From Parasphingopyxis algicola (GTDB lineage Bacteria; Pseudomonadota; Alphaproteobacteria; Sphingomonadales; Sphingomonadaceae): a stretch of 64,000 nt of DNA. A program made the position numbers and the translations under genes. The notes under the pieces are model-generated. The model was not told where the DNA came from and ran no database searches. It saw nothing but the letters and a program-made list of their open reading frames with translations. Shown here one piece after another: positions 3,141-36,550 of this stretch (its first letter is position 1; each line of letters begins with the position of its first letter). Location: assembly GCF_013378075.1 (NCBI RefSeq), contig NZ_CP051131.1, positions 1,054,001-1,118,000 of the forward strand, in the 5' to 3' direction.

Positions 3141-3491
3141 ATGATTAGCGCCGCGTTACTGGCCACGGTATTTCTGATGAATGCCGAAGCGACAGGACAA
3201 GAAACCGCAACCGGGGCGACCAGTCTACAGTCTCGAACTGAAAATTCGGGCGTTCCCGAAGTCACAACGCGCCAGTTGGAATCTGGAGAAATCGAGCAAC
3301 GCTCGACGCGACGCTCCACTCCACCGGAGGATGAGCAACGCTCCACACGCCGCGCCGATCCGCCAGTGGACGAACAGCGTTCAACCCGGCGCGATCCACC
3401 GCCTCAGGATGAGCAGCGCTCGACGCGACGCTCCGACCCGCCGGCGGACGAACAGCGAGCGCCACAGCGCCTCGATCCACTTGGCTCATAG
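3141..3491 (+). CDS. Secreted protein with five 13-residue Arg/Pro-rich tandem repeats
   Basis: The predicted product has 116 residues: a signal peptide (MISAALLATVFLMNAEATG), a linker of about 30 residues, and five tandem 13-residue repeats that reach the stop codon. The unit is EQRSTRRxxPPxD; the fifth copy has diverged (EQRAPQRLDPLGS). The chosen ATG has AGAGGGA upstream; a TTG 36 bases earlier is a weaker option. The repeat is highly charged with regularly spaced Pro-Pro pairs, so the mature protein is probably disordered or extended. I recognise no family. It is divergent from the four-cysteine protein inside the island, 92 bp apart. Confidence 0.65.
   Translation: MISAALLATVFLMNAEATGQETATGATSLQSRTENSGVPEVTTRQLESGEIEQRSTRRSTPPEDEQRSTRRADPPVDEQRSTRRDPPPQDEQRSTRRSDPPADEQRAPQRLDPLGS
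3294..3488 (+). repeat. Five tandem copies of a 39-bp coding repeat
   Basis: Five head-to-tail 39-bp units begin at 3294, 3333, 3372, 3411 and 3450. Each encodes one 13-residue EQRSTRR-type block. Units 1 to 4 are close to each other; unit 5 differs most and carries the end of the protein. Because the unit is a multiple of three, copy-number change would not break the frame. Confidence 0.85.
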
Positions 3492-30633: not shown

Positions 30634-33204
30634 CTATCCGCCGCCTTCGATCCTGGAGAAGTCCGCGACCCGGTGCACAGCATCGCGCATCCGCTCCAAC
30701 ATTTGAAGCCGCGCAGCGCGCTTGACCGGGTCCTCATCGTTGACGGTCACCTTGTCGAAGAACGCGTCGATCGGCTTGCGCAACGTAGCGAGCGCCGCCA
30801 TCGCCCCCTCGAAATCCTCGCGCTCGATCGCGGCTTCGGCCTCGGGCTCGGCCCGCTCGAGCGCCTCACGCAGCAGCGCCTCTTCGGGTTCGGGGGAATA
30901 GGATAGTCCAACTTCCTCTCCCCTTGTGGGAGAGGATTGAGGTGAGGGGTCGGGCGCGTCCGCGCCCGAATGACTCTTTGTTGGCAATGCCGTTTCGGCA
31001 TCGCGCCCCTCACCCTGGCCCTCTCCCACAAGGCGAGAGGGAACACCGTCCCACCCTTCCTTTTTGAGGATATTGGCCGCGCGCTTGTACCCGGCGAGCA
31101 GGTTTGCGCCGTCAGCGGTCTTGAGAAACGCCTGCAACGCTTTGACGCGGGCGAGCAGCCGGACGAGATCCGTTTCTCCTCCCTGAGAAAAAACGGACGT
31201 AATCACATCATGTCGAACGCCTTCGTCACGTTGTTGGACAGAGAGCCGCTCTCCAAAAAACGGAACGATCTCAAGTTGCTTCATATCAGCGAATACAAAT
31301 ACGGCTTTCTCGACATCTTCCTCATCGCGAAGCCGCTCATTCAGTACGTCCTCTATGCTGGTGCCTTCGTATTTGGTCGGCCTGACCGAAGCACGCGCAG
31401 CGAGATCTAGAAAGCCCTGCATTCTCCCAGTTATCAAACTGTCGACCTCTTGTGCTTTACCAACGAGGCGAGACCACCAAAATCGACCGTGCTGCATTAG
31501 CGCTTGGCCAAGCAAAGCTTGCATGCTGCAACGCAGTCCATTGGTAAGAATCAGGCTAATTACGCCAAGCCCTGCGCGACGAATTGCGAACGGGTCCTTC
31601 GAACCGGTCGGTTTTTCATTGATCCCAAAAAAACCAGTTATCGTGTCGATCTTATCCGCCAGCGATACCGCGACCGTCACGGGCGCGGTCGGCACTTCGT
31701 CACCCTGTCCGACCGGCTTGTAGTGGTCGCGGATCGCGGCGGCGACTTCGTCGTCCAGCCCTTCATTGGCCGCATAATAGCCGCCCATGATGCCCTGCAG
31801 GTCCGCGAATTCGCCGACCATGCCGGTGACAAGATCGGCCTTGGCGAGGCGCGCGGCCTGTTCGGCCTTGTCGGCGAGAATAGCCCTCTCCCCTTGTGGG
31901 AGAGGGTTGGGTGAGGGGCCGGGCGCGTCTGCGCCCGAAGAAACTTTTATCGGCGATGCCGTTCCGGCCTCGCGCCCCTCACCCCGGCCCTCTCCCACAA
32001 GGGGAGAGGGAGGAACAATCCCTTCCTCGACCAGCCATCTTGCAAGCTTCGCGACCCGGTCCACCTTGTCGGCTAAGGTGCCAAGTTTTTCGTGAAAAAC
32101 GATCTGGTCGAGCTTTTTCGCATGCTCGGCAAGGCTCACCTTCTGGTCCTGCTCCCAGAAGAATTTGGCGTCGGACAGCCGCGCGGCGAGCACTTTCTCA
32201 TTGCCGGCGACGACATGCGCGCCATCGTCCGCGGCTTCGATATTGGCGACGCAGATGAAGTGCGGCGAGAGGCTGCCATCGGGTTTCAGGCAGGCGAAAT
32301 ATTTCTGGTGGCTGCGCATCGCGAGCGTGATCGCTTCGGGCGCGACGGCGAGAAAGGCTTCGTCGAATGCGCCCAGCAACGGCGCCGGCCATTCGGTCAG
32401 CCCGGCATTTTCCTCGACCAGCCCCGGATCCTGTTTGCGCGTCAGCCCCGCCTCTTCGGCCAGCGCATTGGCGCGCGCGCGGATGATCCCCTCGCGCTCC
32501 TTGTGATCGACGATCACATGGCAGGCGCGCAGCTTTTCCGCATAATCGTCCGCGCCGCCGATGGTGATCACGGCATTTTTGTTGGTCGCATTGTCGGACG
32601 CAGAACCGGTTCCCACTTCTGCTGCCAATGCTCCGCTATGATGGAAGCGATGGCCGACCGTCTCATAACCGGACGCAATGCCGTCGATTTCGCATTCGAC
32701 GAGATCTTCGCCAAGTATCGCGACGATGCCCTGCAGCGGGCGGACCCAGCGCAGGCTTTCGGTGCTGATCGAGGCCGCGCCCCAGCGCATCGATTTGGGC
32801 CAGGGAAAGGCGCGGATGATCGCGGGGATGGCTTCGCCGAGCACGTCCTTGGTTGCGCGGCCGGGCTTGTCGATGACCGCGAAAAGGGTCGACTTGCCCT
32901 TGACGTCGCGGGTTTCGAGATCGCCGCGCGCCAGGCCGGTCGAGCGCAGGAACCCGTCGATTGCTTGGTCAGGCGCGTCGGCTTTCGGCCCCTTGCGCTC
33001 CTCGCGCACCGCCTCGGTTTCTTGCGGAAGCCCGCGCGCGATCAGCGCCAGCCGGCGCGGCGTGGAGAAGGTTTCTATGCTTTCGGCCGTAAGCCCCGCG
33101 CCATCGAGCTCGGCCTTAAACAGGCGTTCGAGATCTTCGCGCGCCTTGCGCTGCATCCGCGCCGGGATTTCCTCGGACAGCAGTTCGAGCAGGAAATCAG
33201 CCAT
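30634..33204 (-). CDS. glyS: Glycyl-tRNA synthetase beta subunit with in-frame repeat-element insertions
   Basis: The beta chain of the alpha2-beta2 glycyl-tRNA synthetase. The start MADFLLELLSEEIPARMQ at 33204 matches the family; the open frame upstream runs into repeat DNA. The product is 856 residues where about 690 is usual. The excess lies in four blocks: about residues 189-212 (AEVGTGSASDNATNKN), 399-440 (PSPLVGEGRGEG ... NPLPQGER), 572-649 (RFWWSRLVGKAQEV ... KQLEIVPFF) and 722-764 (PSRLVGEGQGEG ... SSPTRGEE). Between them the expected segments are intact: HRFHH, SHQKYFAC, DPFAIRRAGLGVI, LSVQQRDEGVRHD and LKTADGANLLAGYKRAANIL. The frame is open throughout, so the gene is probably functional. 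Confidence 0.93.
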   Translation of the reverse strand: MADFLLELLSEEIPARMQRKAREDLERLFKAELDGAGLTAESIETFSTPRRLALIARGLPQETEAVREERKGPKADAPDQAIDGFLRSTGLARGDLETRDVKGKSTLFAVIDKPGRATKDVLGEAIPAIIRAFPWPKSMRWGAASISTESLRWVRPLQGIVAILGEDLVECEIDGIASGYETVGHRFHHSGALAAEVGTGSASDNATNKNAVITIGGADDYAEKLRACHVIVDHKEREGIIRARANALAEEAGLTRKQDPGLVEENAGLTEWPAPLLGAFDEAFLAVAPEAITLAMRSHQKYFACLKPDGSLSPHFICVANIEAADDGAHVVAGNEKVLAARLSDAKFFWEQDQKVSLAEHAKKLDQIVFHEKLGTLADKVDRVAKLARWLVEEGIVPPSPLVGEGRGEGREAGTASPIKVSSGADAPGPSPNPLPQGERAILADKAEQAARLAKADLVTGMVGEFADLQGIMGGYYAANEGLDDEVAAAIRDHYKPVGQGDEVPTAPVTVAVSLADKIDTITGFFGINEKPTGSKDPFAIRRAGLGVISLILTNGLRCSMQALLGQALMQHGRFWWSRLVGKAQEVDSLITGRMQGFLDLAARASVRPTKYEGTSIEDVLNERLRDEEDVEKAVFVFADMKQLEIVPFFGERLSVQQRDEGVRHDVITSVFSQGGETDLVRLLARVKALQAFLKTADGANLLAGYKRAANILKKEGWDGVPSRLVGEGQGEGRDAETALPTKSHSGADAPDPSPQSSPTRGEEVGLSYSPEPEEALLREALERAEPEAEAAIEREDFEGAMAALATLRKPIDAFFDKVTVNDEDPVKRAARLQMLERMRDAVHRVADFSRIEGGG
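30915..31041. repeat. Palindromic repeat element, copy A, inside glyS
   Basis: A 127-bp element with inverted ends (CCTCTCCCCTTGTGGGAGAGG at the left, CCCTCTCCCACAAGGCGAGAGG at the right) that can form a long hairpin. It is about 80 percent identical by eye to copy B about 970 bp away. It lies in frame in the C-terminal part of glyS. One extra base relative to copy B changes the frame near its C-terminal end, giving SSPTRGEE where copy B gives NPLPQGER. Confidence 0.85.
31884..32010. repeat. Palindromic repeat element, copy B, inside glyS
   Basis: The same kind of element as copy A, 126-127 bp, with near-perfect inverted ends (CCTCTCCCCTTGTGGGAGAGG and CCCTCTCCCACAAGGGGAGAGG). It is in frame in the middle of glyS and codes for PSPLVGEGRGEGR at one end and NPLPQGER at the other. 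Confidence 0.85.
32571..32640. repeat. Short in-frame repeat-like insertion in glyS
   Basis: A stretch coding for AEVGTGSASDNATNKN interrupts the conserved HRFHH...ITIGGADDYAEKLRA block of GlyS. The nucleotide pattern GTCGGACGCAGAACCGGTTC with CCCACTTCTGCTG resembles a short dispersed repeat I recall from other alphaproteobacterial genomes. Only one copy is in this window, so the repeat identity rests on memory and not on comparison here. Confidence 0.45.
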
Positions 33205-33224: not shown

Positions 33225-33345
33225 AACCATGTCTCGGCTGCGCTCGACATTGTGCCTCGACTACGCTCGGCATGGACGGAGTTTTGGGTTGACCCGTTTG
33301 TCCCGAGCGAAGTCGAGGGACAGGTTCGAGCGAAGTCGAGAACCG
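33225..33345. repeat. Dispersed-repeat DNA between glyQ and glyS
   Basis: The 156-bp space between glyS and glyQ holds several related inverted motifs: CTCGACTACGCTCGG, the palindrome TGTCCC-GAGCGAAGTCGA-GGGACA, and TTCGAGCGAAGTCGAG. They look like a cluster of short palindromic repeats inserted between two genes that are usually close together. Confidence 0.55.
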
Positions 33346-33360
33346 CAGAAAGCTGCACCA

Positions 33361-34302
<942 letters not shown>

Positions 34303-34503: not shown

Positions 34504-35442
34504 ATGCGGTTCACAATATTGACCCCTATCCTGGCGGCGGTCGCGATCGCCCTGCCCGCCGCGGCGCCTGCCGCCGAACGCGCGGACGAGCCGGTACGGA
34601 CCCTGGAAGACGGCGCGCCGCAGCCGGCGATCTGGCTGCTCGCCGACGAGGACACCCGGATCTGGCTGTTCGGGACCAATCACGTCCTGCCGCACGATTT
34701 CGCCTGGCGCAGCCCCGATCTCGACGCGATCATCCGCGAGGCCGACGAACTCGTCCTCGAAACGCGGGACGAAGATGCGGACGGGGTGTTCACAGAGCTC
34801 GGGTCCCTCGTCGACGATATGACGCTCGACAAGCCGGTATCGATCCTGGAACGGGTGTCGCCCGAATACCGGATGCCGCTCTACACGCTGATCAAATATT
34901 CGGGATTCGGCGGGGACGAGCTCGACGCGCTCGAAACCTGGGTCGTCGCGCTCTATCTGATCGCCTCCTCGCTCCAGAATATCTATGGCGACCCGGAGGG
35001 CGCCGAAGAGCCGACCGGGGTCGAATATCAGCTGACCGATATCTTCACCGCCCAGGGCAAGCCGATCGATGCGGTCGAGACGCCGATGGAGCAGATCGAT
35101 TTCTTCCGCAACCTGACTCCCGACGGCCAGCGCGAGCTGCTCGAAAGCCTGGTGGCGATCGAGCCGGAAGACGGAGCCGATGAAGAGGAGGCGCTCCGCA
35201 GCTGGGCCGCCGGCGATGTCGCAAGAATGGATGCCGAATGCGACGACGAGGAGAGCTTCCCGCCCGAGCTGCGCGAAATCCTGCTGCGCCGGCGCAATGC
35301 CGATTGGACCGAATGGCTCGTCGAACGGCTCGACCGGCCCGGCGATGTGCTGTTCGCGGTCGGGGCCTGCCACCTCGCGGGGTCGGTCTCGTTGCAGACC
35401 ATGCTCGACGCGCGCGGTCATACGGTAGAGCGCACGCACTGA
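34504..35442 (+). CDS. TraB/GumN-family protein, first of a tandem pair
   Basis: A 312-residue exported protein: signal peptide (ending APAAE), then the TraB/GumN motifs WLFGTNHVLP (55-64) and the C-terminal GACHLAGSVSLQTML. The paired GxxH motifs resemble those of metal-dependent proteases of the Tiki/TraB group; activity in bacterial GumN proteins is little known. It has an acidic insertion (EDGADEEEALRS). The next gene, 44 bp on, is a paralogue. Confidence 0.88.
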   Translation: MRFTILTPILAAVAIALPAAAPAAERADEPVRTLEDGAPQPAIWLLADEDTRIWLFGTNHVLPHDFAWRSPDLDAIIREADELVLETRDEDADGVFTELGSLVDDMTLDKPVSILERVSPEYRMPLYTLIKYSGFGGDELDALETWVVALYLIASSLQNIYGDPEGAEEPTGVEYQLTDIFTAQGKPIDAVETPMEQIDFFRNLTPDGQRELLESLVAIEPEDGADEEEALRSWAAGDVARMDAECDDEESFPPELREILLRRRNADWTEWLVERLDRPGDVLFAVGACHLAGSVSLQTMLDARGHTVERTH

Positions 35443-35486: not shown

Positions 35487-36401
35487 ATGAAGATCACATC
35501 GCTCGCCGCCGCCCTTTTCGCCCTGCTGTTCGCGGCCTGTGCGCCCGCCCAGACGCCGCAGACGGTCGCTCCCGCCCCGGTTACGGTACCGGCAGGCGAC
35601 GCCCCGGCGCTCTGGCGCGTCTCCGACGAGGACACCACGATCTGGCTGTTCGGGACGATCCATGTGCTGCCGCAGGGCTTCGAGTGGCGCAACGCGACCA
35701 TCGACGCGGCGCTCGACGAGTCCGACCTGCTCGTGCTCGAAACCGTGACGTCGGTCGGACAGAGCGACGCCGCGCTGCTGCTGATGCGGCTCGGCGTCTC
35801 GGCCGACCTGCCGCCGATCGGCGCGCGGGTCGATCCCGAACTGCTGCCGCAGCTGACCTCGATGATCGAGCGCGGCCCCTTCCCTGAATCCTTCCTGAAC
35901 GGGCTGGAGACCTGGGCCGCCTCGCTGATGCTGGTGGGCGTGACGCTCAACGATCTCGGCCTCGATCCCGAAAACGGCGTCGAGGAGCAGCTCGAACTGG
36001 TGTTCCAGCTCGCCGACAAGCCCGTCACCGGGCTCGAAACCCCGGCCGAACAGCTCGGCTTTTTCGACGGGTTACCGGAAGAGGCGCAGCGCCATTTCCT
36101 GAGTTCGGTCATCGACACGCCCGAGGATATCCGGGAAGAGTTCGATGCGATGCTGAACGCCTGGCGCACTGGCGACGAAGCGGCGATCGCGATGACCTTC
36201 GACGACGAACTGTCCTTTTCCGAGCCGCTGCGCGAAGCGCTGCTGACCCGCCGCAATGCGGACTGGGCGACCTGGATCGGCGAGCGGCTCGCCGAACCCG
36301 GCACCGTCTTCGTCGCCGTCGGCGCCGGGCATCTGGCGGGCCAGGAATCGGTTCAGGATTTCCTGCGCGCCGCCGGTATCGAAGTGGCAAGGGTTCAGTA
36401 G
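35487..36401 (+). CDS. TraB/GumN-family lipoprotein, second of a tandem pair
   Basis: A 304-residue paralogue of the preceding gene with the same motifs: IWLFGTIHVLPQGFEWRNATIDAAL near the N-terminus and VGAGHLAGQESVQDFL at the end. The signal peptide ends LLFAAC, so it is probably a lipoprotein, whereas its neighbour looks soluble and periplasmic. Function is unknown. A 32-bp perfect inverted repeat follows 33 bp after the stop. Confidence 0.88.
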   Translation: MKITSLAAALFALLFAACAPAQTPQTVAPAPVTVPAGDAPALWRVSDEDTTIWLFGTIHVLPQGFEWRNATIDAALDESDLLVLETVTSVGQSDAALLLMRLGVSADLPPIGARVDPELLPQLTSMIERGPFPESFLNGLETWAASLMLVGVTLNDLGLDPENGVEEQLELVFQLADKPVTGLETPAEQLGFFDGLPEEAQRHFLSSVIDTPEDIREEFDAMLNAWRTGDEAAIAMTFDDELSFSEPLREALLTRRNADWATWIGERLAEPGTVFVAVGAGHLAGQESVQDFLRAAGIEVARVQ

Positions 36402-36403
36402 GC

Positions 36404-36550
36404 GTTTGTTCGTCAGACCTTCGCTGTCGCTCAGGCGCCGCACCGGCCCGCGCCCCCTCCCGGCCTCCCATTGAGTATGCCCTAGTGGAAGGCCGGGAGG
36501 GGGCGCGGGCCGGTGCGGCGCTCGAACGAATGTGAGAGTCTGACAAACAG
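36404..36550. repeat. Long inverted repeat with 32-bp perfect arms
   Basis: Arms at 36435-36466 and 36490-36521 are exact reverse complements over 32 bp, with a 23-base loop. Outside them an imperfect second pair (GTTTGT..CAGAC and GTCTGACAAAC) extends the symmetry to the limits given. It lies between the second TraB/GumN gene and rplY. There is no T run; it may be a miniature mobile element or a strong transcript-end hairpin. Confidence 0.8.

Follow-up and report, generated by a model that had tools for sequence, protein, structure and literature searches.

The beta subunit of glycyl-tRNA synthetase (GlyS) of the Sphingomonadaceae probably has two tolerant loops that survive recurrent insertion of palindromic repeats, with the inserts translated as part of the enzyme. 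The gene at the center of this analysis is glyS of Parasphingopyxis algicola, which lies within a 64,000-nucleotide (nt) stretch of contig NZ_CP051131.1 (positions 1,054,001 to 1,118,000, hereafter the window, whose numbering is used throughout); the two loops are referred to as sites A and B, and two other places in the protein as sites C and D. In the proposed mechanism, sites A and B would be permissive landing places for short palindromic repeats in Sphingomonadaceae GlyS, into which repeats of several classes would insert repeatedly, and an insertion would survive only when its net length is divisible by three and it brings no stop codon into the frame. The survivors would be translated as Gly/Pro/Ser/Ala-rich disordered linkers tolerated by GlyS, and they would later decay or be deleted in frame. 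P. algicola carries a GER-type element at site A, a close copy of it at site B, and an unrelated insert of 20 amino acids (aa) at site D.

Results

Two palindromic elements lie in frame within glyS of P. algicola

The glyS gene occupies 30634-33204 on the minus strand, starts with an ATG at 33204, and encodes a product of 856 aa with three in-frame inserts; it was identified by Pfam (PF02092 and PF05746), by TIGR00211, and by PDB, with 7yse among the best matches. An initial annotation of this DNA had described a gene of about 856 residues whose frame stays open across two 127-bp palindromic copies, and the gene, its frame, its length, and both copies were borne out. The site A element (31884-32012, minus strand, approximately aa 398-441 including a few junction codons) is an imperfect palindrome at 31884-32010 with inverted-repeat arms at 31884-31906 and 31988-32010, and the site B element (30914-31042, minus strand, approximately aa 721-765) has its arms at 30915-30935 and 31020-31040; both belong to the GER class. 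The two 127-bp copies are 86-88% identical, and each folds as a single long imperfect hairpin, with minimum free energies of -106.6 and -95.1 kcal/mol and fold z values of -12.2 and -11.3 that were equaled by none of 200 shuffles. Also real is the single-base difference between the copies that had been pointed out: the site B copy has an additional base close to its 3' end on the coding strand, which turns ..PNPLPQGER into ..PQSSPTRGEE, and both copies stay open. Three of the six frames of each copy are open, including the frame in use.

A third block had been called repeat-like. It is a genuine 20-aa in-frame insertion (site D, 32572-32631, minus strand, aa 192-211) when compared with the aligned GlyS sequences of the family, but its repeat-like nature was not confirmed, because no second copy of the surrounding 81 bp was found in the genome and its fold is weak (z of -1.6); it was therefore rejected as a further repeat copy. 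A hairpin was present at the site D position in three other GlyS genes.

In-frame inserts cluster at two GlyS loops in Sphingomonadaceae genes

A total of 220 GlyS genes were collected, and 215 were retained after five duplicate DNAs were dropped. The sources were P. algicola itself, 39 of 40 loci fetched from 59 other genomes (the truncated locus of G003 was left out, and 19 were not fetched), 100 out of 297 matching genomes of the family, and 80 named loci; the 100 were drawn from the best-scoring matches, a choice that works against GlyS genes carrying a large insert within their first 399 aa. The Sphingomonadaceae, the clade of P. algicola, account for 171 of the 215 genes, and 44 lie outside it. 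The usual length of GlyS had been given as near 690 residues, but the median of the collected set is approximately 740 codons; the gene of P. algicola is the second longest, and the 5th to 95th percentiles over the 220 are 685-830 codons including the stop.

When the 215 genes were scanned for inverted repeats with a score of at least 14 and a span of at most 220 nt, 94 were found in 71 genes. Site A (aa 403-439 of the P. algicola protein) bore hairpins in 54 genes, and site B (aa 720-772) did so in 26, or in 24 if confined to the site segment, while no other position of GlyS held hairpins in more than three of the 215 genes. A codon-shuffled control gave one inverted repeat of score at least 14 in 80 genes. 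Sites were also scored by length, with a site being counted as filled when its segment measured at least 36 aa; 18 site A segments of 18-35 aa, some of them remnant-looking, were scored as empty, and native EEDP-type segments at site B were excluded unless they bore a hairpin. By this measure 80 of the 171 Sphingomonadaceae genes have a filled site A and 39 a filled site B, with one or both filled in 89 and both in 30, and none of the 44 genes outside the clade has a filled site. A conserved native segment of the TGEEDPLALVDDPD type, which is not a repeat, occupies site B in 72 of the 215 GlyS genes and is absent from P. algicola.

The close relatives G002, G005, and G007 lack the long inserts at sites A and B. 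The initial annotation had named ancient GlyS sequence or an assembly error as grounds on which its reading would fall; both are contradicted by the empty sites of these relatives, by the same-site inserts in other genes of the clade, and by the recurrence of the arms elsewhere in the genome, and the chance that the blocks are an artefact or native sequence is negligible.

Beyond the family, 20 GlyS genes were picked for long open frames from 249 genomes of the phylum, a choice from which no rate follows, and 6 of these 20 contain in-frame hairpins. In three of them (L356, L360, and L363, all of the alphaproteobacterial genus g128) a repeat of the ISPLEGEM..ISPSRGE type stands at site A, possibly through one inherited event, and the loop is therefore used in another lineage by another repeat. 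The hairpins of the other three lie away from site A. Related repeats were seen elsewhere in GlyS of L357 and L364, which belong to the same genus as L356.

Several repeat classes turn over at the same sites

Inserts were assigned to at least five classes by regular expressions of our own making: GER (CCTCTCCC..GGGAGAGG), repetitive extragenic palindrome (REP) of a CGTC-like kind (..TTCCCGC..GCGGGAA..), PEPVEG (GAGCYTGTCGAAGG), ERS (GTCGAGCGNAGTCGAG), and ELVSGS. By these motifs, site A holds 36 GER, 28 CGTC-like REP, 8 PEPVEG, 5 ERS, and 1 ELVSGS inserts, and 2 that were unassigned. Because several classes fill the same two loops, the phenomenon is tied to the loops of GlyS and not to one element family.

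Turnover was followed on a FastTree phylogeny built from 628 insert-free columns, in which 65 of 212 inner branches are weak. The seven states of site A require 70 changes on this tree, barely below the mean of 75.5 with shuffled labels (as low in 2 of 200 shuffles), and the 28 REP rows alone require 28 changes. Filled versus empty site A requires 44 changes (64.9 when shuffled), at least 26 of which are forced by well-supported branches. Close sisters can bear unrelated inserts, as do N_L207 (GER) and N_L223 (REP), and such pairs recur.

Wherever copy number was examined in relatives, the insert proved to be a dispersed repeat. Of 40 scored candidates for the G061 insert, 39 are further places that match it at near-full length (approximately 80 bp, 80-92% identity). 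For the insert of G194, most of the 71 matches come from its REP part, both arms being counted. A 400-kb sample of G252 contains 8 and 10 places that match its two inserts, compared to 2 and 0 places in 400 kb of the P. algicola genome.

The inserts keep the GlyS frame open

The core of GlyS is uninterrupted from its N-terminal to its C-terminal part in 212 of the 215 open reading frames (ORFs), and the other three end at contig ends. The five frames of the inserts that are not in use are open in 194 of 400 cases at site A (48%) and in 112 of 195 at site B (57%). Hairpin spans fall into classes 0, 1, and 2 modulo three in 24, 20, and 10 cases at site A and in 8, 4, and 12 cases at site B; bases at the junctions thus restore the frame. 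A frame pattern of this kind is the trace that selection leaves when a product is translated. In composition the inserts differ from whole GlyS by more Gly, Pro, and Ser and fewer hydrophobic and aromatic residues. The blocks might instead be removed from the RNA or skipped by the ribosome, in the manner of an intron or a byp-like translational bypass element, and the hairpins are indeed very stable; however, removal or bypass would need no open frame at all, whereas nearly every gene reads through although only about half of the other insert frames are open, and this alternative is highly improbable.

Sites A and B are predicted to be disordered linkers

An AlphaFold2 model was computed from the P. 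algicola GlyS with 56 relatives, and had a mean predicted local distance difference test score (pLDDT) of 86.3 and a predicted template modeling score of 0.82. Stretches with a pLDDT of less than 50 coincide with site D (aa 194-201 and 203-207), site A (aa 403-427), site C (three short pieces within aa 584-606), and site B (aa 725-757). Site A lies between model helices 377-393 and 439-453 and site B between helices 697-715 and 773-794, and the model thus suggests that both are disordered linkers between helices. E. coli GlyRS was the second-best PDB match of the model, behind an integrative model, and in its numbering site A corresponds to residues 378-385 and site B to residues 593-598. The HD domain of GlyRS is given as E. 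coli residues 341-540 in the accessible text of PMC8464048, which places site A between two helices of this domain.

The position in the HD domain bears on whether the inserts are kept for a function, either as linkers tuning tRNA handling or as mRNA hairpins slowing ribosomes and folding, since cavity residues of this domain affect aminoacylation according to the same portion of PMC8464048. Inserts occur in half of the clade, sister species have different repeats at the same place, and most of the shared inserts that were compared are well conserved in DNA, all of which would suit a function. However, site A is empty in 91 of the 171 clade genes, including those of the close relatives of P. 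algicola, and the same place is filled by unrelated sequences, and retention for function is accordingly unlikely.

The full-length element is confined to glyS in its own genome

The genome of P. algicola was searched as one contig of 3,669,801 bases. The full-length element has two copies only, both in glyS, and everything else that matched is a fragment 22-42 bases long. An exact search for the arm hairpin CCTCTCCC-N-GGGAGAGG gave 11 places, including three within the two glyS copies, whereas the reversed control pattern gave none in this genome. A search of the genome for the 127-bp element, as the initial annotation had proposed, thus shows arms that recur elsewhere but full-length copies that do not. 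By a simple gene caller of our own, 6 of the 11 places are intergenic and 5 are in ORFs, namely the three glyS arms, the C-terminal tail of a DUF969 protein (L315), and a doubtful N-terminus of a dihydrofolate reductase (DHFR) gene (L323); the latter two were not accepted as true intragenic cases, given the tail position of the one and the doubtful start of the other.

The Y1_Tnp/RAYT family (PF01797) was not found in the P. algicola genome, and was present in 2 of 10 genomes searched; a RAYT transposase was therefore set aside as the mover of this element. The Rfam search gave six matches at E values up to 1, all to miRNA models and all below the gathering scores, and no known RNA family was accepted as the identity of the element, none being above the curated threshold.

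Hairpins are far more frequent in glyS than in other sampled genes

Base rates were measured with hairpins of score at least 15 in 464 kb of the P. algicola genome (12.6%, window included; 423 called genes) and in a sample of G252, and with REP loci in G194; both of the latter genomes were selected for a filled glyS, and genes were called with the simple caller used above. The P. algicola sample contains 24 hairpins, 20 intergenic, 2 at gene edges, and 2 intragenic, both of the latter in glyS. The G252 sample (400 kb, 347 genes) contains 9 intergenic hairpins, 3 at edges, and 2 in ORFs, one of which encodes a phospholipase-D-like protein (L309), while the other has no Pfam match and is likely false. 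Among 30 REP loci of G194, some of which are two arms of one element, 20 are intergenic, 7 are at edges, and 3 are intragenic (glyS, the TrpE linker, and one ORF without a Pfam match). The REP in TrpE of G194 (L335, 594-2147) is in frame in the linker between two Pfam domains, and L309 is similar. Two further candidates, L295 (665 aa) and L329 (768 aa), were discarded as hairpin-bearing genes; they have no Pfam match and look like false antisense ORFs.

Pooled, 2 of 769 other sampled genes hold such hairpins, and one of the two is probably a false ORF. Furthermore, within the genes of 41 named loci, 28 hairpins lie in glyS compared to 3 in 222 neighboring genes, two of the three apparently being in pyruvate phosphate dikinase genes as read from their sequences; 11 hairpins in these loci lie at most 400 nt upstream of glyS. 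Taken together, these data indicate that such inserts can occur in other genes but that, in the samples studied, they are much more frequent in glyS. The inserts of P. algicola itself matched 4 and 3 places in its own sample and 2 and 2 places in the G252 sample, and are therefore at most slightly commoner at home.

Junctions and the route of entry

Inverted-repeat arms are present at the filled glyS sites, the junctions are altered, and no clear target-site duplication was seen at the filled and empty glyS sites that were compared. Hairpin starts at site A range from -5 to +36 nt relative to the end of the Val codon, a scatter that does not support one exact DNA target. By our pattern, an arm begins at the Val codon in 12 of the 28 REP-class inserts, and 16 of the 28 do not fit this pattern. 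At site A of L054 (G001), L128 (G194), and L164 (G061), the insert opens directly after GTC with a tRNA-Met-like 3' end, a 28-nt stretch from the T-stem to CCA that is followed by a REP or ERS hairpin; local scores are 28 for G001, 23 for G194, and 21 for G061, compared to a control maximum of 17, and the tRNA-Met gene also has TGTC ahead of the matching point. Insert matches to tRNA-Pro and tRNA-Val (scores of 22 and 19) were set aside as needing gaps and involving GC-rich repeat arms, and the tRNA-like stretch of L199 was not above control.

The Val-codon starts and the tRNA-Met-like ends leave room for a preference at the DNA level, by which the sequence around the Ile-Val codons (..ATCGTC) would itself be a preferred target or break site and would receive repeats with CGTC ends, tRNA 3' ends, and other DNA more often than other places do. 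The inserts that open exactly after GTC, together with the TGTC of the tRNA-Met gene, favor such a preference; however, the starts scatter over approximately 40 nt, the majority of REP-class inserts are off the pattern, site B and a differently flanked GlyS of another alphaproteobacterial genus are also used, and GTC is a common triplet, and this route seems rather unlikely. A broader form, in which site A would be a true capture site taking whatever structured short DNA is available, be it a GER, a REP, another palindrome, or the 3' end of a tRNA, and GlyS would have evolved to use an exchangeable disordered linker, is doubtful but conceivable. If it were true, different repeats would serve sister species as one and the same segment of the protein.

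Other features of glyS and the window

Site C (31270-31521, minus strand, aa 562-645) is a hypervariable segment within a lower-GC stretch. Its length ranges between species from near nothing to approximately 110 aa, it is barely alignable even inside one genus, and no repeat was seen in it among the alphaproteobacterial GlyS sequences compared; the low-GC stretch between the two element copies, which overlaps this hypervariable site, was not taken to be foreign DNA. A hairpin of a different repeat type (33232-33341, listed without strand) occupies the gap directly upstream of glyS, and the upstream neighbor at 33361-34302 appears, by reading of its sequence, to be a glyQ-like alpha-subunit gene with glyS downstream. 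Elsewhere in the window, a 140-nt stretch (34624-34763 and 35604-35743, 75% identity) is common to neighboring ORFs of 312 and 304 aa, which look like tandem paralogues; a large inverted repeat with 64-nt arms that are 84% complementary stands directly past a 304-aa ORF (36407-36549); and a repeat array at 3294-3478 has a 39-nt spacing and four overlapping copies of a 68-nt reference.

Discussion

Recurrent insertion into two tolerant, translated loops is the best explanation for the inserts, whose classes, positions, frame, and turnover on the tree were observed, whereas their translation in vivo, their near-neutrality, their loss by deletion, and the mode of insertion are inferred. It should be noted that several observations weigh against this reading. 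The inserts lack internal stops partly by construction, because they were taken from open frames; what carries weight is that every complete GlyS gene of the set was intact. Outside the set, GlyS of G016 (86% complete, 7% contamination) lies in several frames with one TGA. The division into classes rests on our own regular expressions, and BLAST single linkage merges most inserts into two large clusters via short matches. The junctions are untidy, with ..IVxxADPDxA in the empty state and ..IV(insert)xLADxA in the filled state. Third positions agree in 193 of 215 insert codons compared to 339 of 468 upstream codons in six of ten pairs, and purely neutral linkers would not show higher agreement in the inserts, although this may reflect youth, hairpin constraint, or the choice of recognizable pairs; among the remaining pairs, N_L194/N_L195 shows no third-position difference (28/38 and 57/80), two reuse members of the six (31/36 each), and one has unrelated inserts. 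An excess of approximately 50- to 120-fold over other genes, a figure drawn from small samples, may be too large to be explained by tolerance alone, and PMC3733652 doubts chance as the reason for intragenic REPs in many repair genes.

Palindromic repeats within proteins, in Rickettsia and in others, mostly belong to one element family scattered over various genes, and Rickettsia palindromic elements (RPEs) measure approximately 100-150 bp. The initial annotation had likened the glyS elements to RPEs, which are described in the accessible part of PMC3733652 as palindromes in frame inside conserved Rickettsia genes. Compared with RPEs by description, the 127-bp hairpins of P. algicola are likewise in frame, in a conserved gene, and at tolerated places, and the likeness holds in that the palindromes lie in predicted disordered loops, the arms recur, and the sites of close relatives are empty. 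It fails in that the third block is not shown to be a repeat and the full-length element is not spread through genes, having only its two glyS copies; the host also differs, and in this family a single enzyme receives several classes at the same two loops. CGTC repeats are resembled by the REP class of sites A and B, and some REP-class inserts of relatives carry CGTC-like ends, whereas the arms of the P. algicola element end in CCTCTCCC and GGGAGAGG and have no GTAG/CGTC tag. The QMITE elements of Coxiella are presented in the consulted section of PMC5896051 as short inverted-repeat elements that are sometimes in frame in ORFs, and the glyS elements are likewise short inverted repeats in frame; as for the target-site duplication of such miniature inverted-repeat transposable elements, none was clear at the compared sites, where the junctions are altered.

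Intragenic REPs are already known. The 2013 paper PMC3733652 places REPs inside ORFs, and in one phrase counts among these the tRNA synthetases of two sphingomonads, E. litoralis and S. alaskensis, with the synthetase unspecified, and suggests flexible linkers or loops as neutral REP sites; for insertion at the same site, its section 15 gives recB of two Xanthomonas only and no recurrent hotspot for multiple families. In the literature searched, Additional file 3 of PMC3733652 aside, nothing was found that describes GlyS as a hotspot for repeated insertion by several repeat families, and such a hotspot appears new within that literature. For annotation, differences in GlyS length, and peptides such as ..LPQGER or VIPAKAG..DSRLRGND, can be repeat-derived and should be treated with care. 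With dozens of gains or losses on the tree at two loops and with empty sister sites as controls, GlyS of the Sphingomonadaceae is a natural test bed for deciding among selfish, neutral, and useful roles of such repeats, and for examining insertion where no known transposase is found, and it offers a way to study how noncoding repeats become protein sequence.

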